DNA of 64,000 bases from NCBI RefSeq assembly GCF_947623445.1, contig NC_135243.1:6264501-6328500 (forward strand), in the 5' to 3' direction. The position numbers and the translations under genes are program-made. The DNA comes from Clavelina lepadiformis. Taxonomy: Eukaryota > Chordata > Ascidiacea > Aplousobranchia > Clavelinidae. The notes below the pieces were generated by a model, which was not told the origin of the DNA, searched no databases, and saw only the letters and a list, made by a program, of their open reading frames with translations. Below are positions 29,961 through 61,010 of this stretch, in pieces. How positions within the stretch are numbered: the first letter of the stretch is position 1; each line of letters opens with the position of its first letter.

Positions 29961-31661
29961 AACAATGTATGATCATCTGAAATTGCAGAAAGGCTATCTA
30001 GGTAACCGGGGCTCCAGCAAGGAAGACTTTTCCGTTTAAAGTCTTTTCTCATTCCGCTAATAAAGATTAATTAATTATCATGTCATGCCAAATAGAAGGT
30101 AGGATTTGACTTACCTGTTTGACAGACTGAAGTATATAAAGCCTGCCATAAGGGTAAGAAAAACATCACATCTGTATGGGGATGTGCGTACAAGTAATAA
30201 CAACAACATGATCACAGCAGGACCTGGTAAAACACAACCAAACATGATAAATTTAGTCTACTATCTTAGTGTGGCCGGAATATGCCTTAAAAATGTACAC
30301 ACAACCAAATACAAATGCACAGGTCAAATATTAGATTTGTTCTAAATTAAAACTGTTTCTTCAAACCTATTGTAACAACTACTCCACATTGCATGATTGC
30401 CACCATTTTGAAAACATGCAACTCTCGTTTCGTTTGCTGAAGTTGCTGACATTTAGCAGCGTCATTGTCTGGCAATTTTCGCAGACGTCGAAATTTCCAC
30501 CAAGCTGCGATTGTTGTCATAATGGAAAGCAGGACCTACGTCATAAAGCTCTTTCAAGGCAAACGTTACAATAACTGGAAAATACTAGATGTTTCACTTG
30601 CCACTATCAACTCGACCTACCATCAAAAAGAAAGGAAAGATGATTACAGAACACCATAGGCCTAAGGCCGCACCCAATGACTTTCCAACGGGAATGTACA
30701 TAAACGCGGCCAGGTGATATCCATAGCGAGATGAAAAGAAAACTACAAGTCAAAATCGATATACTTGTAAGACACAATTAATGCTTCAGGGTTAAGTCCT
30801 AGCTACGTACGACATTTAACGCTGGCTTATAGTAATAACGGCAAACAAGTTAGTCTTTGGTTACCTGGCGCCATAGCGTACAAAAAGGCGAGAATCCAAA
30901 TCACGATTAAACCGACAACAACTTGTCGTTTTGATTGTGTTCTATAACGGAATGGCAGCTGGATGGCGTAAAAGCGCTGTAGGCCGAGTAGAATGAGATG
31001 AAAGAGAGAAGATGTGATACAAAAGATCATAATAACTGACCCAGTTGCGATGTACACAGTTTTAATATGCTGCTGTTTCTCGTATTCTCCTAGTGTTGTT
31101 CCCATCGCCATTATGAAGTTTGGCAGAACAAAGACGAATATTTGCACACCTAGATTGAATCCAATAAAGTGTTAACCCTTCCACTTTTTTAATTATAAAT
31201 ATTTGTGAAAACAAAAGCGCGCCCTTGCGTTTGTTAAAGGATAAGAGGATAAGCTTTCTGATAATGCCTTTACTCTTACAACTCATTAGCCTACTCGTTT
31301 GTCTTTGACACTTACCTGTTAAAATATCCGCTAAAGCCAATGATATCTTTATTACGTCAATCTTTTGCGCGATTCCACTTCGAACTCGTTGGCATCCAAC
31401 TGCAATTATCAGTGCGTTCCCAACCAGTATTGAAAGGCCTAGTGTACAGATGCCAATAACGAATGTAATTTCCCTGGCTTTGTTACATTCTTCGCAATCA
31501 CTGATTAACTTCGTTTCACAAATTGCATGAGCCTGTTCCGTACAAAATCCGTCCAAAATGCAAGGTCTTGAAGAAGTCAACTCTATCATGCTAAATTCTA
31601 TTACTTCTGCTTTGGATGTTGCATTTTGTGCGAAAGTAGATAAATTGCTTGCTTTCGACAT
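29879..31661 (-). CDS. Rhodopsin-like (class A) G-protein-coupled receptor, orphan, six exons
   Basis: Exons (minus strand): 31661-31316, 31149-30865, 30742-30621, 30535-30367, 30223-30115 and 30056-29879. All junctions are GT-AG and in phase, giving 402 residues from ATG 31661 to TAG 29879. The N-terminus (1-64) has NLS and NAT glycosylation sites and several cysteines, with no obvious signal peptide. TM1 is about 66-89 (with VGNALI), TM2 106-130 (SLALADIL), TM3 147-172, TM4 191-209, TM5 231-260, TM6 290-319 and TM7 326-343. At the end of TM3 the DRY site reads QRF (172-174), followed by AIQLPFRY. TM7 lacks NPxxY and ends FIYFSLSNSGMRKDFKR. The exon 4 donor (GTTTGA) is weak. The ligand cannot be told. 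The final ~22 residues derive from a region matching a SINE in antisense. The LTR element lies downstream. That it is a 7TM receptor is secure; the exact splice pattern is inferred. Confidence 0.8.
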
Positions 31662-33994
31662 CTTTACGACCCAGCGTTTTTATTTCCTATAGCCTAACTT
31701 TTTTTCAGCAGCAAAACTGTTAGGCCCTAATAGGTTACTACTGTTTTAACTATATTTTCCATAATAGGCTATGAGTTATGATAGACCAAGTCTTTGTATA
31801 TTTTTTATCACCTGAAGATCTAACTCTGTTAAGTTTAATGAAGGTTTGACCAAATAGCAAAATTCTCAAACTGACGTTTTGCCTTAAACATCAACAATTC
31901 ACTGCATTCTCTGACTGTGAAGTTTAAATCCATCTCAACGCACAAAGTAACTTAAAAATGTTTTTCAGCGAATTATTTTCTATTGTGCTATTGGTAGGAC
32001 AAGAAAGAACTCTACTAGAGCGACATAATAGACGAGAACCATTGATCTGAAAATGCTTCTCCAACCGAGGAATATGGCGCTTAGATATTGAAAAAGGCGA
32101 TGACAAGCTAGGCCTATATAGTCTACATTAAACAGGTGAAAATAAACAAGGGGAAAAAATCTTCATCCAAATCTTCGCATTTGTTATGCAATCTACAGGG
32201 TCACAACGTTTAATATATCAACAAAGCGCAGGTATTTTCCATCCATATGAACCACATTTCTTGTTTTTAAAAGACTTACGAGTTTTAGTTAGAGTAAAAA
32301 GCGTTACGAGATTGCTACAAGTCATGAATCATGCTTTCAGGCCAGCGCTTATATTATATGTGATGAACTTTTTTGTATTCGGTTATCAACGACATACAGT
32401 GGCACGTATCTGATTTAGCGAAGGAAATTTGTTTAAACTCTGTCGTTTGTAAGGAATAACTGAAGACTTTTGAGCTGATTATGATTTAGATTCCTGTTGA
32501 ATCTAGGCTAAGACAAAAGCTGTTATTTGCTTAGTTTTTTACTAAAAATTATAGAGCATCGTAGCCTTAGCGGCCACAATATCATTTAACAGAAGTCGGT
32601 GTCAGCAAATATCGACATATGGATTTGGTTTGTTGATATTTTATTATCATGAAATCACAGCCGTTAAGTGTTTGGTTTTGAGATATCAATTGCTCTTTAA
32701 ACCTTCTGGTGGGGTAATCTTACTAATCTATTATATTGATTCCTAACCAAATAAGAAGCTTTCAGATTATTTGTGGGGCAAATTTTTATTAATTTTTAGA
32801 TCATTTTTTGTAAATAGATGGCGAAATGATGGGTTGTTGGTTTGCTAGATGAGTTGGGTAAATATTCTGAAATAACGAAGCGCAGTCTAATGGATAATCA
32901 TAATATATGCAAGTGATTCTTTGTCAAATTCTTTTAACCTCATATAATAAATACCAATTACGACATTTAAGACTAGCACTTTAACCTAGTTATCATTCAA
33001 GAAAAACTTTTTAAGAACAAAACTTTTTTTATTTTGCTTATACAGTATCCAAAAGGTGTTTTAAACAAAAAATTTAGTTTGTAATAAGCTTATAGACTAC
33101 ATCTACTTGGAAGTCTAAACTTATGTTACAAAGACAAATACCACAAAAAGGATAATATTAAAGATAAAATACCAATTTATGGTTTTATTAATGTGGAATC
33201 GTATACACAAGAATATTTTCAATAGAGAAGATACAGATAAAATAAAACTGTACAACAAACAATTCTCAATCGCCTTTTTACTCTTTCAAGTTACCTCAAA
33301 ATAAATTTCGTTCGGTAAATGGGTAATTTTGAAAACTTATATTTTCCTAAAATAATTTCTTAAGTTTTTATTGTATTGTTTTTCTATCGCGTGAAAAATA
33401 GAATTAAAGAATAGAAGTAAATTTATTTAGGCCCAGTGTTTTTGAAGGTATTTTGGAAAAGAAACGGTGTATTAAATTTTGTAATTCCATAATTATACAG
33501 CAGAAAATGAGCAGTTAGTCTTAAGTAGCGGTCTTTTAAAATTTCTTAGCGGTCGTCAAAGTCAAACCTTAAAAGTACTGTTTAGCCCTGTTATAGTAGT
33601 CCATTATTGCAAACATTGCTGCGTCATTCCCTGCTAATCATTCCAACATTTTTCAGACAATTTCCTTTTTTATTACACATTGCATCAAACTATGCTCACC
33701 TTATTGTGTATAAGCAGCTAAGCTTATATCCCACACCCGGAATAGGGATTTTTTCCCGCAATTTCCAGACATAGATTGCAATAAATTTTGCCTTTCTTTT
33801 TGAAAAAGAAGTTTGTCAGAAAATTTGTATGCAGCCTTATTGGAACTAGTTTTTTTCATTAGTAAAAGTTTTATTCACAAAGTGCTCAGAACTCTACAGC
33901 TGCCTTAAGAATATGACGTTCGGGTCAGTATACTTTACATTTAATATATGACACAAAAACACATGCGTTCCGAACTTTTGGATATATATTAATA
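31662..33994. other. Intergenic, upstream of the receptor
   Basis: No gene was recognised. Short frames (32106-31924 -, 32186-32413 +) have no support. The promoter of the minus-strand receptor should lie just right of 31661. The phrase TAGCGGTCGTCAAA near 33546 recurs near 43597, which hints at a diverged dispersed repeat. Confidence 0.4.
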
Positions 33995-34002
33995 CTATAA
34001 CA
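33995..34002. repeat. Left 8-bp target-site duplication of the hAT element
   Basis: CTATAACA directly precedes the terminal CAGTGG and is repeated exactly at 36340-36347. Eight base pairs is the hAT-superfamily duplication length. Confidence 0.9.
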
Positions 34003-34199
34003 CAGTGGTTCCCAACCTGTTTTGTTACATTCCTCCCTTTGCCCATTTTCGAAATATTCATTCCTCCCCATAAGCCAAAAAACTAATAGAACATAAGAAA
34101 TTATAGAAATTTGAAATATCAATTTATTTGGTTTGGTGACACAAGCAAAAGGTTGCCGACCCCTGCTATAGATAAAGGCGCTGTCCAAGTGCTGTCGCA

Positions 34200-34378
34200 T
34201 CCAAGTGATTATGTGTCACGTGATTAAATGTCGCGTGATTAAGTATCCAAGTCGCGTGATTAAATGTCCTAGTGATTATGTGTCGCGTGATTAAGTGTCC
34301 TAGTGATTGTGTGTCTGTGATTAAGCGTCGCGTGATTAAGTGTCGCGTGATTAAGTGTCGCGTGATTAAGTGTCGGTA
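34200..34378 (+). repeat. Tandem array A of a GTGATTAAGTGTCGC-type unit (about 11 copies)
   Basis: Units vary as GTGATTAAGTGTCGC, GTGATTATGTGTC and GTGATTAAATGTC, alternating with CCTA spacers. The array ends GTCGGTAAACC. Read on the minus strand it encodes repeated RHLIT, which is only a consequence of the repeat. Confidence 0.9.
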
Positions 34379-35673: not shown

Positions 35674-35802
35674 ATTACTGAATTTTCCTCACGCTTTTCC
35701 GACATTCGTTCTCTACAAAATAAATTCAGGCTATTCAGTACTCCTTTTGATGTGGACGCCAATACCATTCCCGAAAAATTTCAAATGGACCTTATTCAAG
35801 TG
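35674..35802 (+). pseudogene. hAT transposase remnant
   Basis: 43 open codons read ITEFSSRFSDIR...FRLFSTPFDVD and then IPEKFQMDLIQ before TGA. The pattern F-x-x-RF-x-D, LF-x-x-PF-x-VD, (V/I)P-x-x-x-Q-M-(D/E)-LI is that of the C-terminal half of hAT-derived proteins of the ZBED5/GTF2IRD2/EPM2AIP1 type. Stops bound it on both sides and no BED finger or catalytic region is nearby. The frame at 35467-35673 just upstream may be further decayed sequence of the same origin. It identifies the parent element; it makes nothing functional. Confidence 0.5.
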
Positions 35803-36007
35803 TGAATACATATATTTTGCTCTTTTTGTGATTGGTATGATTGAGATTGCAGCAATGTAGCGTAATATACTGAAGTGAGTGTGAATTATAGTATTAATGA
35901 AAGTTCCGGCCCGCCAAAGAGTTGTGCACTCGACATTTGGCCTGTGACTAGCAAAAGGTTGCCGACCCCTGCTATAGACAAAGGCGCTGTCCAAGTGCTG
36001 TCGCATC

Positions 36008-36197
36008 CAAGTGATTATGTGTCGCGTGATTAAATGTCGCGTGATTAAGTATCCAAATCGCGTGATTAAATGTCCTAGTGATTATGTGTCGCGTGATTAA
36101 ATGTCCTAGTGATTATGTGTCGCGTGATTAAGTGTCCTAGTGATTATGTGTCGGTGATTAAGTGTCGCGTGATTAAGTGTCGCGTGATTAAGTGTCG
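36008..36197 (+). repeat. Tandem array B (about 12 copies), duplicate of array A
   Basis: It is preceded by the same 60-bp lead-in as array A (GGTTGCCGACCCCTGCTATAG..., ...GTGCTGTCGCATCCA) and has the same unit order at its start. The lead-in and array were copied as one block. The array ends GTCGGTACACC. Confidence 0.9.
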
Positions 36198-36339
36198 GTA
36201 CACCCCCTAATGTATATACTAAAATATTCTGTAAAATTTCCAAAGCAAAAAATGTTTTTTAAAGTTTTTATCAAATTCCTCCCCTGAACTCATAAAATTT
36301 CTCCCTAGGGAGGAATTCCTCCCCGGTTGGGAACCACTG

Positions 36340-36968: not shown

Positions 36969-36974
36969 TTTATT
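36969..36974 (-). terminator. Polyadenylation signal of the peptide gene
   Basis: AATAAA on the minus strand, 68 nt after the TAA at 37042. The close spacing supports the gene model. Confidence 0.6.
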
Positions 36975-37041: not shown

Positions 37042-37784
37042 TTAACCACTACAACATTCTGGTGAGAATGGCGGTCGATCACAGCATGTAAAGCGTTTGA
37101 CTACACCTTTAAATTCTCCTTCTTCCACATCCCTTTGCCAACGTCTCAGTTGATTCAAAGATTCCATGATACCTGTCCAAAAACTTTCTGTAAAGCCAGT
37201 AAACGTTTCATGTCTTGGTGTAATAATAATTTGGATGAAATACGTTTATCTTAATGAAAGAGAAAATATTGACAAGATGTTTTTTCATGTTATCAAATTA
37301 ACTACAAAACGTTGTTGATGGCAGAAATGGGCGCAATTCCGAGGGCACAAATGTCACCAAAATATTTAACCAAAATATGTAATAATAATTAACCAAAATG
37401 TGTAAACAAAATATTTTCAAATTTACCATTTTCATCAACACTTTGATGGAGACGTCTGAAAAATAAATCATTTCTTCATTGTATAAGCAAATGCTATTGT
37501 AAATTTTCTTTCTTTGTATTTTAATGGAAACAATAACTTTAAATCTGGGAAAAATTGCTTAACATTTATATCATCTCGGTTATCATTTTCGCTTTAGTAC
37601 TTGCCAACTTTGTGTAAGTATAAGCGAAAAATAGCCTGGCAAGTAGGCTACTGTTAAAAAAAACGCTGTTACAGAGAAACTACAACCTTTTCAGCGTAGG
37701 CTAAATGTTAACTTACACGGGATCAGAGAACGTAGCACAAGTCGCAAGAAGCAGAATTTCAGCGATCAGAAGAAACTTGCTCAT
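37042..37784 (-). CDS. Secreted CC-CC peptide precursor (neuropeptide- or conopeptide-like), three exons
   Basis: Exons (minus strand): 37784-37717 (68 nt), 37455-37427 (29 nt) and 37187-37042 (146 nt). The donors are GTAAGT, GTAAAT; the acceptors TTTTTCAG and CTTTACAG. Phases 2 and 1 match, giving 80 residues. Residues 1-20 form a signal peptide (basic start, LLIAEILLLATC core, TFS before the likely cut). A pro-region (21-62) rich in Glu and Arg leads to KR at 63-64, then FTCCDRPPFSPECCSG to the stop. The predicted product is 15 residues with two cysteine pairs and a C-terminal amide made from the Gly. The order signal, pro-region, dibasic site, CC-CC, amide is that of framework-V (T-superfamily) conopeptide precursors and of ordinary neuropeptides; the spacing of eight between pairs is longer than in most of those. 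A second in-frame acceptor (GGACAG) would shorten exon 3 by 15 nt. TTACAG just before the ATG could be a 5' intron or trans-splice site. No family is recognised and homology to cone-snail peptides is not claimed. Confidence 0.75.
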
Positions 37785-38879
37785 CTTTCTGTAATTTTCA
37801 AGAAACGAGTTTTGAACAAAGGCTAAACTATAGGCTACCTACAACGATTTACAGACGCTGTAAACTACTTCGTAAAACTTCTTATTGGTTATTATTTTGC
37901 AAGTGGTTTGTTGCGATAGCCTACGGTAACGGAAAATATAAACTTCGATCAAATTCTGAAGTTTTACAAAATATCATTTTTCCCCTCAAGGCATGCTGGT
38001 ATTTCTCAGAGCAGCTTTTTTGTTGTATACATTTATAAAGACAAACCTCATTGTGACTAATTGTTGATCTATTAGATTTAGATTTGAAATTTAGTCATGA
38101 TCAACTACAGTCCGTGGTTATGATGTCGGAGCTTGCGTTGATCTGACTATAACGAGTGACTCGACACGACTCACAAACCTATCGGTTGTAATATATTCCA
38201 CAGCAGTAGTTTTGTTATTGTAACATTCGCTTTCAACTCGACAAGATTTCTTCGTAGAGTTATAAAAATTCATTTTATTGACATCGTGATTCATTCCAAT
38301 TCCACGTTCCACTGAGGAAATGAGAACAACATCACAAGACTGCAGCTTTCACAGAACAAACTGTGATTAGTGAAAATGGACGTTAAATCAGAATGCACTT
38401 CCTAACATGATAAAAATTGTGTACGGCATTGTTGCTGGATACGACCAGAAATTACAGGAAAGACGACACTGAAACGATGGATGCAATTGTCTCTAAACCA
38501 TATGAGTTATTTGTAAAGAGTGTTCACCAGGATTAGGTTATGTATAACTTATTACAAACTTATATTGGAAACATAACACAATATAACGCATGTTATTAAA
38601 AATGATATGGAATTATAAGTACTCTGTTTATCTTCACAGCTTGTACAAAGTCATTTTCTAATAATCGGATTACACCGTACACTTGAAGTGCTATGTTTTG
38701 TTATTGATTGTGCCATTAAACGGCACTACAAAACTTAAACACAGTTTAAATTGAATTAAGATTAAAATACAATTAAATAATTCATGAAGAAGTTAAATAG
38801 AAAATACAACACATGTGAGTAGGCTAACAGGAGTGGTCTTCAAAAGAGGTTGTGTTTTGGATTTTCTGACAACAAATAC

Positions 38880-49939: not shown

Positions 49940-50698
49940 TCATTTGTCATAGAAAAGCTTTGAAAGTTGTTGCATAGTATCCTCTGGTGATGTCACAGTG
50001 TGCCCAATTGTTCTGTCATCATTGTAGATCTCAAAGTCATTGCCACCTTGCATTGTTTTGTCTCCAAAGAAGTGAATTTGCTGAAATCCATCATTTTGGA
50101 CATATTTAAGGCAGAATCGTTTATCCCATCCGTCGGGGAAAACATCAAAGCTGATCTGGCCACCAATCGAAAATGTCAGCCCAGCACCTTGAAATTCCTT
50201 CCGTAGAGAGGCAACAAATTCTTTTCGAACGTTGTTAACATTGTCATACTCATTAAACTCTATCCGTTCCTGTTGTGTGCAGCTTCTACCAACCGGACAT
50301 ACATTGAGCATACCCTTACGGAACTCTATAAACGTTCCTCGCTTTCGTGGAAGATTCAACTTTGACATATACTCGAGACTATAGTTAATGAAGCGTTGCA
50401 AAAGTTCGTCGCCAAGGTAATCTTGAATGTTATTCTCACCAATTTTTACACCGTTCTTATAGGCAACGAGGCCATTTTCTGAAAAAACATAATCAAACGA
50501 GTTGATAAGCTCATCTCCATCAGCTCCTAGTTGCTCAGCTATTTTTCCGAAATCGGATCCGCCAACCACTCCAATTGTAACAATCTTTCGAAGGTCTTTC
50601 AAGAAGTTCTTCATTTCAGGTGTAATCTTTAGTCTTGGCAGAGTGAGAGTTCCATCCACATCGAAAAGACATAAAACTGATGAATTCTTTTTAGCCAT
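49940..50698 (-). CDS. PMM2: Phosphomannomutase (PMM1/PMM2 family), intronless
   Basis: 252 residues from ATG 50698, close to the 246 of human PMM2. The enzyme interconverts mannose-6-phosphate and mannose-1-phosphate in the cytosol, supplying GDP-mannose for N-glycosylation and GPI anchors. It is a HAD-superfamily protein. LFDVDGTLT (about 11-19) carries the nucleophile and acid-base aspartates. [45 protein letters not shown] (substrate-binding Arg residues) and [17 protein letters not shown] (metal-binding Asp) follow in the family order. It is complete in one exon, whereas vertebrate PMM genes are split, so an ancient retrocopy or intron loss is possible. PMM2 is preferred to PMM1 only because the single-copy invertebrate gene is usually so named. 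The 5' region (50699-50780) is AT-rich with no clear TATA box. Confidence 0.95.
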
Positions 50699-53600
50699 TG
50701 CAAAGAAAGCAACCGATTAGATTTATTTTGCAAAAAATAAATTTAATACATAAACCGTCCCTATTTGCAAGCTTCTGTGAAAGAAATGAATGAAGAGCAC
50801 GCGTGGCTTAATTCGCACTTGACTAGTAAAACTTTGCAGCTTACATAAAACTAAACTGCCCTAACCATTATCATAAGAAACTATGTTATCCAACAGTAAC
50901 TAGTAGTCTAGTAAACAAGTGCACAACCACAGGATGCCTTTGTATACTAAACCCCAGCTACTCAAATTGTGACGTCATCTAGTGTGCACTTGTATAGGCT
51001 ACTAGACCCTCATTTTCAAATGCACTGGGTCCCAACTCTCACATTGCAGTCCTACTAAAGATAATTCTAAACGCAACTTCTCAGGAAAAGCTTTGGCTGC
51101 AACGCACATAACTACATAAGAGTAGTTAAAGCAAGCAATTTATGAAACGCCAGAACAAGCTGAAACACTAAATTTGCTTGCCTATGTGCTGTATAAAGAT
51201 TCATGTTTTCAGTTCAAGTCAAGTCGTATACGTATAGACTAAAATCTTACACATTTTAACCTCTGCTGCGTTTTCCTATCCGTCAGACAGACAATTTCAC
51301 ATAAGCGTTGAATTTTATTGTGCAGTCAAGGCTGGCCTAGTTAACGCCAAAATAATAGCGGTTGGCAGTTGGCACCACAGTTTCACTCTTGCGCTAGCTA
51401 AAAAAGTAGGCGACCAGATAGCCTAGGCTACGTAATTTTTTGCATAACACATCTGGATTGTACTTGCTCTGTCGTTTTACTTTTGAAGTGCCACTAAAAT
51501 CCTCAGCAGAATATACGGCAGTGTACAAAGCTGAGTAACTTGATTTGCAACTTTTCTTGCAATTCAAAAATACGAGTGAACTGCCACGTCTTCGACACAC
51601 CTCTTTCAGTCATTGATGACGCGTTGAAATTTGCGTGGGTGATTCTGGCGTCACTTTTGCTCATAGAAAACATAAATCAGAATAACAAAATCGTAGAAAC
51701 AAACAAAACATCAAGCTGAAATTGGTCCTACCAAAAAATACTAAATAGAATTACTAAAATTTAAAATAAATAGAGTAAAATTTGCCTATATCGCCACCTT
51801 AAGAGGAACAGGAAAACTCGCGAACCGGTGACTTAAACAAACAAAATGAAATCAAATTTTTTTATTGCATTTTTAGGGTAGGCTACTACATTTAGAATTT
51901 TAGATTAAATGTAGATTAATGCATTTAGATTAAATGCTTTGTAAATTTTATTTTTGTTAAAAATTAATGCTTGATGTGATATTAAGATTTTAATTTTTGT
52001 ACATAGAATAGCTTCCTAACTTAAATCTACTTAAAAGTCACTAGGCTTACTTCGTATCTCACAGCCCTAGGCTTTTACAATCATAACCTGCTTGATGATT
52101 TTCTGAAGACAGAAAACGACTCTCCACTCGATGGCTAGAGCAAAACTGCACTATAAAAACGACATTCTCTATACACTATAGCTGGTTCCATTTTCATCGT
52201 GATTCTGTAGTTATTGGCTAGGCCGCTTCATTTGACTGCAGCACAGCTAACTGAAAGAAAATTGAAACCGATAAAAACAGTCTAATATGACAAGGTTTCC
52301 GGGCCCTTCATAAATTTACATCATGACGTACAATAAGGTTGTCTTACGTTAACAAGGATCGCAGATATCTTGACAATACAGCTATAGTGTAGTTGTACCA
52401 GATTAAGTTTGCCATGTAATCACGTTGACAAAGTGTTTTTAAGGTCATATTTCTTATGCGTATTATTTTGGCCAAAGTAGCAAGAACAGTGCCGAGTTAA
52501 GCGAATTATTTTGCTCATTATAACAAAACATAATACTACAGAAGAAGTAAGCTTTCCGCCGGACCACGACTTTGGCGAACTGACGGCTTAGCCGAAGGCG
52601 ACTTAGGCGAGCTTTAAGGTACTAAGATATTTTAGGTATAATTACAAGAATGAATAACATTTTGATTATTTTAAAGCGTTTTATGATGGTAGAAACCAAA
52701 ATTTTTGCGATTCGCGCATTTTTGCATGGTAGTTAAACATGGAAATTTTAGATTCAGCTTTCAAAATTTTGGATCTCTTCTCAACATAATTCTAAATAGG
52801 CCTACTGATTTCTGGACGCACCAAAATGCGGTATGTGGAGTGCTTCGTCGAGAATTGCTAAATAATTAAAGGGACCAACCGTTGTTTTCATGGAGGGTAC
52901 ATTCCACACGAGTTACGCCGAAGATCTTTGGCATGAGCTATGGCCAAGGCCAAGCGATGTAAACTCGGTTTGACCTTGGCGTGACACGGAGCCAATTTAG
53001 GCCTACGTCTTGGCGCAAACATGACAATCCATTTTTCTCTTGTTTGGACTAAACAGAGCACAGTGTCTCCTTTTTTAGAGATCGCAAGTGGCATAACGTC
53101 TTTAGCGCATTCGTAATTTACGCCAAACTTACCTTCGGCGTATGCATTGCGCGGAATGCATCTTGGGTTTTCATACATAGGCCTATTGTCTATCAAAGCG
53201 ACTACTTCACTGTAAACCACACAGTCCACTGTTGAAGACAAGCAGTTACGTTAAAAGAATGAGTATGAAAAACTCAATTTAAGGCAATTAGGGTATGAAG
53301 TTAGATATATTTTATAAGGAAGACTTTAGGTTTGAATCAAGCTACTATGTGATAACATTTACAGTAAATTAACAAGAAGTTAGACCTATAAAAAGTAGCT
53401 TCGACAGAAGCCTATGATTGTTCCGGTGAAATAGTGACAGCCTTCAGTTTATTGTTGGAAAGAAAGAATATTAGCAACAGTGATGCTGCAAGGGTTCTCA
53501 GATTTCGTTTTGTAATTTTAGGTTTTTTCTGCTTGACCAAGCAAGAAACCAAATTTTGTGTCAATTTTAAAAAGCCTCTAAGATTGTGTATAGCTGAGTC

Positions 53601-54082
53601 ACATAGGGGTCTAGGTCACATCATTCTTTTATACAAGGCTTCTCCGTTTGGTTACTTGAAAGGCTCCGAAAGGCTCCAACAATAAAACTCTTCTCGCGAG
53701 AAATGTTTGATATGTAGCTTACCTTCATAAATTTTACGTAGAGTAGGCCAACTGTTCATTTCGCACCTGCTTACTTATTGTCTTTCAAAAAGATTAACGA
53801 AAGATAACCACTTCTTCGTGCTGAAACCATGCAATATGTTCAGTACCTGCAACAGCTTACCAAGCACGCCTGTGCGTTGAGTCTAGTAGAGTGATCTCCG
53901 AGTACAGTTGTCTACGGACGATGGCGCACGTCATTGTTTAAGTGACGTGTGAATGCTCTGAAAGGTTATTACTGGGTGTTATTCTATTATAAATTATTTG
54001 ATATTTTCAAGGCATTTTTCTTTACAACATTTTGTTTTAAGTTTATGTGGTCAACTTTTTAAAAAGCGAAATTCCAGCTAAA
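50699..54082. other. Intergenic between phosphomannomutase and first 7TM gene
   Basis: Holds the promoter side of both the minus-strand phosphomannomutase and the + strand 7TM gene. One coding-like segment on the minus strand is listed separately. A phrase near 52741-52763 (GGAAATTTTAGATTCAGCTTTCAA type) recurs near 57376-57400, suggesting a diverged repeat. Frames at 51600-51394 (-) and 53434-53685 (+) are unsupported. Confidence 0.4.
52888..53227 (-). CDS. Coding-like orphan exon
   Basis: An open frame of about 112 codons follows a fair acceptor (CTTGTCTTCAACAG, ending at 53228) and stops at TGA 52888. It reads VDCVVYSEVVALIDNRPMYE at its start, then KKGDTVLCLVQTREKWIVMF and an Arg/Lys/Pro-rich tail. 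A good donor (GAAG|GTAAGT, near 53133) could end the exon early. No family is recognised and no partner exon was found upstream. It may be an exon of an unknown gene, a decayed repeat, or chance. Confidence 0.25.
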
Positions 54083-55180
54083 ATGAAAGACACAAACTTT
54101 ACTGAATCGGATCCTTACATCAGATGGAAACATGCAGACTGGATAATACCTGAGGTGATCAATTCTTTACTTATCCTTGCTACTTTGTGGATCATATTTT
54201 CTTTGATTCATTTTGGGATAAAACACAAAAAATGGAGCACAAACAGGATGGGAAACGCAGATAAACTTAGTGGTGGAAGTGTGTACACATCGACTGTAGT
54301 TTGTGCAATGACAGCACTTGTTAGGTTCATCAACAGCCAATTCACTTTTAACATTGGAATTGGTGTTGGTTACGACAGAGAATGTGAGATTGTATCAGAT
54401 TCGTCATTTGCTTGGTATAGCCTAGTTAGTTTCGCGATTTACATTTTCCTTTGGTTACGTCAAAGAATCTTTTATTCAAACAACATGCTAAACGTAAGAT
54501 TTGGAATTGTTCTGAAACTGGTCAGTGCCACTAGCATTGTAATATTGTTTCTGGCTGGTCTTGCAGCGGTACTAGTCAACACAATTCCTGTGAATTATCC
54601 ATCATCACGACAAGGTTGCATTTATAAGGAGACCGAAGACATCGGTCCTGTCGCATGGATAATTTGCGTTGTTGTCGTAATTGCTGCTCAGTTTGTATTG
54701 GTTGGACTTTTTGTATATCCACTCAAACAGGATTTCGTTCAAAGTGTTTGTATTTGCTGTCCGAGTGTAGTGCATGCAGCGAACATCGTAAAAAGTAGGG
54801 CATGCAGTGTAGCAACTATACTTACGACTGATGAAAACGCTGGCGTGAATGCTTCGAAGAATATGACGACCGCAAAATGCAGAAAATGCAAAAAGAAGTC
54901 GTCAAAAAAAGTAAAGACTATCATGCAACGAACCGTTGCGTTCTCAATCATCATGGTTGCCACAGATATCATATTACTTCTGATTACAACATACACCATC
55001 AGCAACGAAGGCCATCGCCGTATTCCCACAATACTCTATGATGTTAACACCTTTCTTAATCTCATCTTTGTCATTTGCTCGTTTTTGTCATTCAGACAAA
55101 TGTTGTTTTCACCACTTCTGAATGTGAAAGCTTTATCCGCTACCACTCACATATCTTCTGACGTTGCTTGCAGTAGCTAA
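54083..55180 (+). CDS. Seven-transmembrane orphan receptor-like protein, copy 1
   Basis: 365 residues in one exon from ATG 54083; the frame is open to 54047, but the only ATG is at 54083. CCAG five bases before the ATG could be a splice or spliced-leader acceptor. There is an outside N-terminus with an N-F-T glycosylation site (residue 5). Membrane segments lie at about 21-46, 68-92, 109-126, 141-165, 190-213, 282-306 and 316-338. Cys101 (before TM3) and Cys179 (between TM4 and TM5) could form the disulfide typical of 7TM receptors. A WLRQRIFYSNNML segment follows TM3 in place of DRY. The loop before TM6 is long and Lys/Cys-rich. It matches no receptor family I know and may be a tunicate lineage family. 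AATAAA follows at 55553. A paralogue lies 4.7 kb downstream. Confidence 0.85.
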   Translation: MKDTNFTESDPYIRWKHADWIIPEVINSLLILATLWIIFSLIHFGIKHKKWSTNRMGNADKLSGGSVYTSTVVCAMTALVRFINSQFTFNIGIGVGYDRECEIVSDSSFAWYSLVSFAIYIFLWLRQRIFYSNNMLNVRFGIVLKLVSATSIVILFLAGLAAVLVNTIPVNYPSSRQGCIYKETEDIGPVAWIICVVVVIAAQFVLVGLFVYPLKQDFVQSVCICCPSVVHAANIVKSRACSVATILTTDENAGVNASKNMTTAKCRKCKKKSSKKVKTIMQRTVAFSIIMVATDIILLLITTYTISNEGHRRIPTILYDVNTFLNLIFVICSFLSFRQMLFSPLLNVKALSATTHISSDVACSS

Positions 55181-58100: not shown

Positions 58101-59912
58101 ACACGTGACTCGTTATTAAAGATGAAAAAAGGTTGTAAAAGCGAGAAAATATGCAAAAAATTGAGTTGAACCATTTGAGATTAAATTAAGCTTGATTTAG
58201 TGTAATAGAAAGTTTTGCGTTGGATGCTGCTAAAGTTACAACTTTTAAGCTTACCGAGAAATAAAACCGGTAAAATGATTTCAAAAAAAATTAATCCTGT
58301 AAAATAAAAACTGCTTATATTTTTTCAGCCAGTTTCTAAATAACTTTACGTTATCGAACTCTTTTTTAAACATAACACTCATCAATGTTTAAAGCAACGT
58401 AGCAATCCACGATAAAACAAGTAAAAAGTATTTTAATTCTATCAATAAATAGTTCCCTGCAATGGTTGGATGAGCAAAGGCGAGCAAATAACTCTTTTAC
58501 CTTTTAATAGGTTACAATAATGAGCTCAGAGGTTAAGCCATTTAATTTTTAAATACTGTATTACTAATCATCATGTCTGGCAGGTTGTCGTGGTATCCAT
58601 CACTTTCCTGCGGTGTAGTTGTGCAAAAAACACGGTCTGACAGTGCACGATGTCATAATCACAGCACGCATTTTCGATATTTACTATATCATTATACCGC
58701 CAGGTTTTTAGTAGCAGGCAAAAAATGAGCTTTGACGTCAGACTTCAATCAAATAAAGGCGGTTTGAGCAATTTAATTACGAAAATAATATATCTACACT
58801 GCATAGTATTGAAACTATTGTAATTATACGTACATACTGTAATAGTTATTATGAAATAGATCATGACGTATATCGCATAATATTACACATTGCTTCATAA
58901 TTTATGTTTTGAGGATAATAGCGACTGCAGTTTCCACGGAATTTAGCGTAAAGCCAAGTAACCGATTAAATTATACAGTCGAGTACTGGTCAGCAATTAC
59001 AAAATTACTAATCAGCAATCACCAAAATACGATTTTTACTTAATGTTTATATTTACTCGTCGTATTTTATGACGCATGTCATTACCGTTTTATATTGTTT
59101 TGTATCTTATATGGATTTGAGGGTAATAATAAGTAAAGCTTTCGAATCATCTGTTAGATTAAGCGCATAACGAAGTAACTGGTATGAGACACACGCATAT
59201 ACATGTACTGCTATGAAAGACAATTAACTGAAACCACCTCGGAAACATCTACAGAAAAAGAGCGTTTAAATAAAAACACAAATGGATCACAAACTGATTG
59301 TTTTCCAGATAAAGCAATTTTTGATCTAAACTCTTGTAAATGTTTTGAAAACATAAGCTGTAAGTTATATGTTGAATTTAAAATAGTATTTTTTTAAACA
59401 AAATTGCTTTTAACATTTTGTTGTTTAATTAGTAGAAGGCTTAAGGTGCCGTTTTACAAATATAAGCAGCTTAAAATGGAAAACATCGTGATTATTACAA
59501 AGGTCAAACATTGCCACTTTAGAAAAAGTAGAATTGGTTTCGATTTTGTGCACATGTAACGCTATTGTATGATGCTTCGTTGTTGTCACTTGTTTTCGTA
59601 TTTTTCTTAATCTAGGCAAACATTGACATCTAGTGTTGGTTCGAAGTCAACGTTTTTGAATACATTGCATTAAAATTTTCAGCTCAAAACTAAATGTAAC
59701 TTAAAACGCTTGCTGTGTGAGTTCCAAATATAAGACTTTATTAGTCATATTGCAGTAGTTTTTCTTATAACTAATATATTGCTGCATACAAGATGTCAGG
59801 GAGGTTACTGTTCTCATTTATTAGCAAATGCAAGTTGAAAAATCTTACGTCTGTAAATTGTTTATAATAGACCTTTTTGATAATATACCACAGTAACTTA
59901 GGGAAAAACAAA
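55181..59912. other. Spacer between the paired 7TM genes
   Basis: No gene was recognised. The duplicated similarity does not extend into the flanks that I compared. Overlapping minus frames at 56857-56268 lack splice support. A CRE-like TGACGTCA is at 58733-58740, in a small CpG-richer patch (58600-58750). AATAAA of copy 1 lies at 55553-55558. Confidence 0.4.
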
Positions 59913-61010
59913 ATGACAAATAATTTAAATGAAACAAATTCGACTGAATCGGAACCTTACATCAGGTGGAAACATGCAGACTGGATAATACCTGTGGTTA
60001 TCAACTCTTTACTTATCCTTGCTACTCTGTGGATCATATTTTCCTTGATTCATTTTGGGATAAAACACAAAAAATGGAGCACAAACAAAATGGGAAACGC
60101 AGATAAACTGAGTGGAGGAAGAGTGTACACATCGACTGTAGTGTGTGCAATGACAGCACTTGTTAGGTTCATCAACAGCCAATTCACTTTTAACATTGGA
60201 ATTGGTGTTGGTTACGACAAAGAATGTGAGATTGTATCAGATTCGTCCTTTGTCTGGTATAGCCTAGTCAATTTCGCGGTTTACATTTTCCTTTGGTTAC
60301 GTCAAAGAATCTTTTATTCAAACAACATGCTCAACGTAAGATTCGGAATTTTTCTGAAAGTCCTCAGCTTCAGTAGCATTGTAATCTTGTTCCTATCAGG
60401 CCTAATAGCTATACTAGTCAACACAATTCCTGTGAATTATCCATCATCACACGAAGGTTGCATTTATCACGAAAGCGAAGACATGGGACCTGTCGCATGG
60501 ATAGCTGGCATCATAGTCGTGATTATTGCTCAGTCTGTATTGGTCTGGCTGTTCATATATCCACTCAAACAGGATTTCGTTCAAAGCATTTGTGGATGTT
60601 GTTCGGCTGAAGTGAATGGAAAGAAGACCAATAAAAAAAGATCACGTAGTGTAGCATCCATCCAAACTAACAAAAGCGATGGAGAAAGCAGAAACATGGT
60701 GCCGGAGGAGAAAGTGTGCAAAAGAAAGTCATCGAATACAGTGAAGTGCATCATGCAACGAACCGTTGCATTCTCAATCATCTCAGTTGCCACAGACATT
60801 ATATTAGTGCTGATTTCATCATACACCATCAGCAGCGAAGGACATCGCCGTGTTTCCACAACGGTCTTTGATATCAACGTTTTTCTTAACGTCATCTTTG
60901 TCATTTGCTCGTTCTTGTCATGCAAACAGATGCTTTTTTCACCGATATTTAATGAAAATTCCGCACCTGGGACTGCTCAAACCTCCTCAGACATTACTAG
61001 AAGTTGCTGA
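59913..61010 (+). CDS. Seven-transmembrane orphan receptor-like protein, copy 2
   Basis: 365 residues in one exon from ATG 59913, a tandem paralogue of the gene at 54083 in the same orientation and with the same length and membrane layout. The N-terminal half through TM3 is almost identical even in third positions. TM4 and the loop before TM6 (about residues 222-280) have diverged strongly, while TM6 and TM7 are again close. The glycosylation sites (NETN, NST), Cys pair and WLRQRIFYSNNML motif are kept. AATAAA lies only 60 nt after the stop (61070-61075). The pair probably arose by local duplication; the signal sensed is unknown. Confidence 0.85.
   Translation: MTNNLNETNSTESEPYIRWKHADWIIPVVINSLLILATLWIIFSLIHFGIKHKKWSTNKMGNADKLSGGRVYTSTVVCAMTALVRFINSQFTFNIGIGVGYDKECEIVSDSSFVWYSLVNFAVYIFLWLRQRIFYSNNMLNVRFGIFLKVLSFSSIVILFLSGLIAILVNTIPVNYPSSHEGCIYHESEDMGPVAWIAGIIVVIIAQSVLVWLFIYPLKQDFVQSICGCCSAEVNGKKTNKKRSRSVASIQTNKSDGESRNMVPEEKVCKRKSSNTVKCIMQRTVAFSIISVATDIILVLISSYTISSEGHRRVSTTVFDINVFLNVIFVICSFLSCKQMLFSPIFNENSAPGTAQTSSDITRSC

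Follow-up and report, generated by a model that had tools for sequence, protein, structure and literature searches.

Two cysteine-rich peptides purified from the ascidian Synoicum turgens, St-CRP-1 and St-CRP-2, were published in May 2026 (PMC13208793). St-CRP-1 is CCDQCYGFCRLVDNCCNS-amide, and the available text of that report describes both as isolated peptides that had no relatives by BLAST and gives no precursor for them. Laboratory strains were used to test them, Bacillus subtilis and Corynebacterium glutamicum included. St-CRP-1 has moderate to weak activity against two Gram-positive laboratory strains and St-CRP-2 against one, and both are described there as inactive on the Gram-negative strains tested; the authors doubt that direct antibacterial action is the main role and propose other defence functions (PMC13208793). 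Each superfamily of conotoxins is defined by its signal peptide, and in the T-superfamily the cysteine pattern known as framework V is CC-x(4-6)-CC (as given in the accessible part of PMC4278219).

The locus described here lies on chromosome 4 of the Clavelina lepadiformis assembly kaClaLepa1.1 (PMC10884593), within a stretch of 64,000 nucleotides that was analysed as a whole (the window). C. lepadiformis and S. turgens both belong to the order Aplousobranchia. We tentatively propose that the gene encodes a secreted, amidated, two-disulfide peptide of the defence type, a reading that we favour at somewhat less than even confidence. The gene is carried by the minus strand (the original prediction named no strand), and its features are as follows:

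37717..37784, minus strand: exon 1, with the ATG, the predicted signal peptide MSKFLLIAEILLLATCATFSDP and two bases of the next codon (splice model and hydropathy)
37456..37716, minus strand: intron 1, GTAAGT...TTTTTCAG, 261 nt
37427..37455, minus strand: exon 2, 29 nt, in which the pro-region begins; its residues are identical to those of P0001, an annotated protein of a second assembly, except for V29D
37188..37426, minus strand: intron 2, GTAAAT...CTTTACAG, 239 nt, or 15 nt longer with the downstream acceptor
37042..37187, minus strand: exon 3, with the remaining pro-region including RR, then KR, FTCCDRPPFSPECCS, the amidation Gly and the stop
37045..37092, minus strand: predicted peptide FTCCDRPPFSPECCS with the amidation Gly (translation and mass arithmetic)
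36969..36974, minus strand: AATAAA, candidate polyadenylation signal (sequence)

The three exons (68, 29 and 146 nt, together 243 nt) join in phase to a protein of 80 residues that ends in KR-FTCCDRPPFSPECCS-G-stop, exactly reproducing the structure first proposed, and both introns are bounded by GT-AG. A TAG lies in frame 57 nt 5' of the ATG. The start of the protein is signal-like, with a hydropathy maximum of 2.92 at residues 5-13, and the remainder of the proposed layout (a pro-region, then KR, then a CC-CC peptide with a terminal Gly) can be read in the sequence and agrees with P0001 bar one acceptor. With the alternative start of exon 3 at 37172, the protein has 75 residues, as in P0001, and the mature part stays the same. 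The candidate polyadenylation signal, AATAAA, follows the stop after a gap of 67 bases, in agreement with the original placement 68 nt past the stop. Besides KR, the pro-region contains RR at residues 47-48, a possible second cleavage site that would leave the final peptide unaffected. Directly abutting the ATG, TTTCTTGAAAATTACAG followed by AAAG (37785-37810, minus strand) resembles an unpaired 3' splice site, and the message could therefore be spliced-leader trans-spliced or have an intron in its 5' UTR. Spliced-leader trans-splicing is a known habit of tunicates.

The sole match to the precursor among 5.77 billion proteins is P0001, an unnamed product of 75 residues from C. lepadiformis. 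The contig that encodes it also bears the counterpart of the window gene at 59871, the two sharing 283 of 286 residues, so P0001 very likely comes from the same locus in another assembly. The residues ESFWT are missing from P0001, and the window acceptor 15 nt downstream gives a 75-residue model of like shape. The only other differences between the two proteins are E9G, A14V and V29D, and P0001 has no stop and no frameshift relative to the window frame. Directly observed for the gene are its frame, the splice-site sequences, one match in the genome and this annotated protein of the same locus.

The substitutions seem to spare the last 43 residues (3 of the first 32 residues are changed vs 0 of the last 43), a contrast that is suggestive only (Fisher p 0.07). 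Between the two assemblies the precursor differs at 3 of 75 residues and the neighbouring gene at 59871 at 3 of 286 (p 0.11); because the differences are not fewer than in the neighbour, the comparison gives no evidence of constraint on the precursor. Its somewhat higher divergence would fit a secreted precursor that evolves fast and, equally, a frame under weak constraint. An inference of selection from the two assemblies was dropped, as the changes are too few to decide.

The predicted FTCCDRPPFSPECCS-amide has 15 residues and four cysteines in a CC-x8-CC arrangement, a net charge of about 0 (one Arg, one Asp, one Glu and a free N-terminus) and a calculated monoisotopic mass of 1685.61 Da, as the amide with two disulfides. 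The mass arithmetic was checked on the published St-CRP value (2037.67 calculated vs 2037.68). A sequence search of the structure database (PDB) at E up to 10 returned two sequences, the better at 0.43, and these were rejected as too weak. An AlphaFold model of P0001 alone (mean pLDDT 65, pTM 0.32) has helices at 3-19 and 31-49, with the last block near 50, and is uninformative on the disulfide fold. The loop of the peptide, RPPFSP, is the sole RPP(x)FSP string in six frames of 264 kb. Bradykinin carries RPPGFSP, and a likeness to it was considered and set aside because neither the Gly within that motif nor bradykinin's Phe-Arg end is present here.

Beyond C. lepadiformis, neither the single-protein query nor a profile that included the St-CRPs found a relative among the 5.77 billion proteins, in a search that depends on shared exact words of five residues. 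None of the Pfam and NCBIfam models matches at E up to 10. In the 209-Mb genome, queries with the DNA, the 80-residue protein and a 27-residue tail located the gene once and brought up no second copy, the counts being lower bounds; the two genomic matches of the protein query are both exons of the gene itself. A query of the C. lepadiformis genome with St-CRP-1 gave an empty result, in a search that had no positive control. Two more frames with a dibasic site and CC-CC occur within 264 kb (C4 6390741-6390824, plus strand, and 6415016-6415105, minus strand), and both were judged by eye to be chance because neither ends in an amidation Gly.

The same protein database contains proteins from the window's own assembly (P0003, P0006 and P0028, all with NCBI LOC names) and the window gene at 54041 as the exact 365-residue protein P0004. 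The searches brought up no protein for the peptide gene from that assembly, P0001 representing a single sequence, and the annotation of the window assembly thus appears to be without the peptide as a coding gene. In our judgement short peptides of a single species are readily overlooked, and still the missing annotation is no positive evidence. A search of the open-access literature by general terms rather than by sequence found no title about the peptide. The description of the precursor as undescribed has to be qualified on two counts: P0001 is already a database entry, to which UniRef gives the name 'Conotoxin', and amidated ascidian peptides with outer CC pairs are in print (PMC13208793).

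In the proposed mechanism, the three exons would give a preproprotein from which the predicted signal sequence is removed. Cleavage after KR would follow, the C-terminal Gly would serve for amidation, giving FTCCDRPPFSPECCS-amide, and the four cysteines would pair, likely in two disulfides. The product would be secreted and likely used in defence, as suggested for the St-CRPs of S. turgens. The defence role is the least certain of these steps; it is likely by analogy, given the outer pattern, the polar tail, the amide, the small size, the neutrality and the common order. Against a defence peptide stand the six cysteines of the St-CRPs vs four here, the weak antibacterial action that the available text reports for the St-CRPs themselves and their authors' doubt about a direct effect on bacteria (PMC13208793). 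The proposal as a whole is also weakened by the lack of relatives outside C. lepadiformis, by the apparent gap in the annotation of the window assembly, by a divergence no lower than that of the neighbouring gene and by the chance expectations for the motif and for the loosest splicing rule given below.

The main rival to a defence peptide is a neuropeptide or peptide-hormone precursor, whose product, a 15-residue amide with two disulfides, would signal through one of the animal's own G-protein-coupled receptors. A signal, a dibasic site and an amidated C-terminal copy form the general layout of regulated-secretory peptides, and the gene has a signal-like start by hydropathy, KR and a single C-terminal copy with the amidation Gly; its apparent absence from the annotation of the window assembly would also suit low, cell-restricted expression. 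Against it, no Pfam or NCBIfam family matches at E up to 10, and among the 5.77 billion proteins no relative in other tunicates was found. We consider this rival rather unlikely.

The receptor gene that had been noted 5.4 kb away is indeed there, as a 7tm_1 match in the frame 30827-31171 and an adjoining receptor-like frame, with no Pfam match of its own, that ends at 31679, 5.4 kb from the peptide gene. Proximity alone had been called no ground for pairing, and we agree: pairing by proximity is unsupported, nothing else ties the 7tm_1 gene to the peptide, and receptor-like genes also occur at 54041 and 59871. These two genes (54041-55180 and 59871-61010, plus strand) are similar single-frame, stop-to-stop frames of 379 residues, hydrophobic by eye and with no Pfam match at E 0.1. 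UniRef names two of their second-assembly relatives 'Vomeronasal type-1 receptor', and C. lepadiformis is named for seven among the matches listed. Elsewhere in the window, 49940-50716 (minus strand) is a single-frame phosphomannomutase (PF03332, E 6e-107), the frames 33925-34215 and 35731-36081 have HIITWMRQHLDSAF-YSRGRQPFA in common, probably as a repeat, and 35731-36258 can be read as a series of HLITR/HIITR units.

Chance offers a further explanation, in which a random CC-CC frame has been joined to a random hydrophobic frame and both gene models are artefacts of the predictors. Simulation of 120 Mb under a first-order sequence model gave five frames of the form dibasic-CCx(2-12)CC-G-stop; about nine are expected per random genome of 209 Mb, and the motif by itself is therefore not significant. 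A stretch of 264 kb holds 1377 frames of similar size that end in a stop. An upstream exon with a signal-like sequence could be joined in phase to 3 of them under a strict rule, to 22 under a medium rule and to 380 under the loosest rule, which accepts any GTA or GTG donor, all with thresholds chosen when the gene's own values were known. One of the strict three is the gene itself, and a second has its end at 37298, within intron 2. The product of the motif and joinability rates, with independence assumed, predicts 0.02 (strict), 0.14 (medium) or 2.4 (loosest) full layouts per genome. The nine or so motif frames and the roughly two layouts expected under the loosest rule speak for chance, and an accident would also suit the window assembly without a protein for the gene, the lack of relatives and the disagreement of the window and P0001 models on one acceptor. 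The strict and medium expectations argue against it, as does the frame of the second assembly, which is intact, with substitutions, no stop or frameshift, and the last 43 residues unchanged. On this evidence we regard a chance origin as doubtful.

Bolder, and in our estimate improbable, is the suggestion that the gene founds a peptide family new to chordates. Its product would be a two-disulfide CC-x8-CC amide whose rigid DRPPFSPE loop engages a tunicate receptor in the manner of a hormone or neuropeptide, the six-cysteine St-CRPs being its defence-recruited cousins. If it were true, aplousobranchs would hold a conopeptide-like toolkit that evolved independently.

That the gene is a relative of the conotoxins is highly improbable: the UniRef name of P0001, the two CC pairs and the amidation Gly would speak for it, but the name is unsupported, because neither Pfam nor NCBIfam gives a match at E up to 10 and the spacing of eight residues lies outside the four to six of T-superfamily framework V (PMC4278219), and both protein searches return just the C. 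lepadiformis protein and no cone-snail protein. On a chordate protein the label is misleading, and it could spread by annotation transfer.

The defence-type peptide that we favour would, if real, provide a gene and a precursor layout for short amidated CC...CC peptides of ascidians, as well as an exact mass to seek and a protein to seek in the transcriptomes of other aplousobranchs. The likeness to framework-V conopeptides drawn in the original prediction is a loose one, shared in the two adjacent-cysteine pairs, the short peptide and the precursor and failing in the spacing, T-superfamily peptides belonging to cone snails and this one to a tunicate (PMC4278219). Turgencins A and B of S. turgens are, like the predicted peptide, ascidian, cysteine-rich and amidated, but they have 35-36 residues, six cysteines with no adjacent pairs, and lysine-rich motifs, according to the available text (PMC13208793). 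The original prediction knew of no tunicate peptide with this pattern; the published ascidian amides with outer CC pairs have six cysteines (PMC13208793).

The St-CRPs, known as isolated peptides, have 18-19 residues and six cysteines in a CC-C-C-CC arrangement with three disulfides, whereas FTCCDRPPFSPECCS, predicted from the gene alone, has 15 residues and four cysteines in CC-x8-CC. Just the four outer cysteines are invariant when the peptide is aligned with the St-CRPs, and because of the extra cysteine pair of the St-CRPs we keep the peptide out of their class and liken it to them only in its working. The two have in common the outer frame CC[DE]...CC with an acidic residue after the first CC, a short polar tail, a C-terminal amide (predicted here), small size and a net charge of about 0. 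In FT-CCD...ECC-S-G(stop) a CC pair lies near each end, as in the St-CRPs, and the Gly predicts the amide. With no claim of homology, St-CRP-1 and St-CRP-2 appear to be the closest published match for the peptide.
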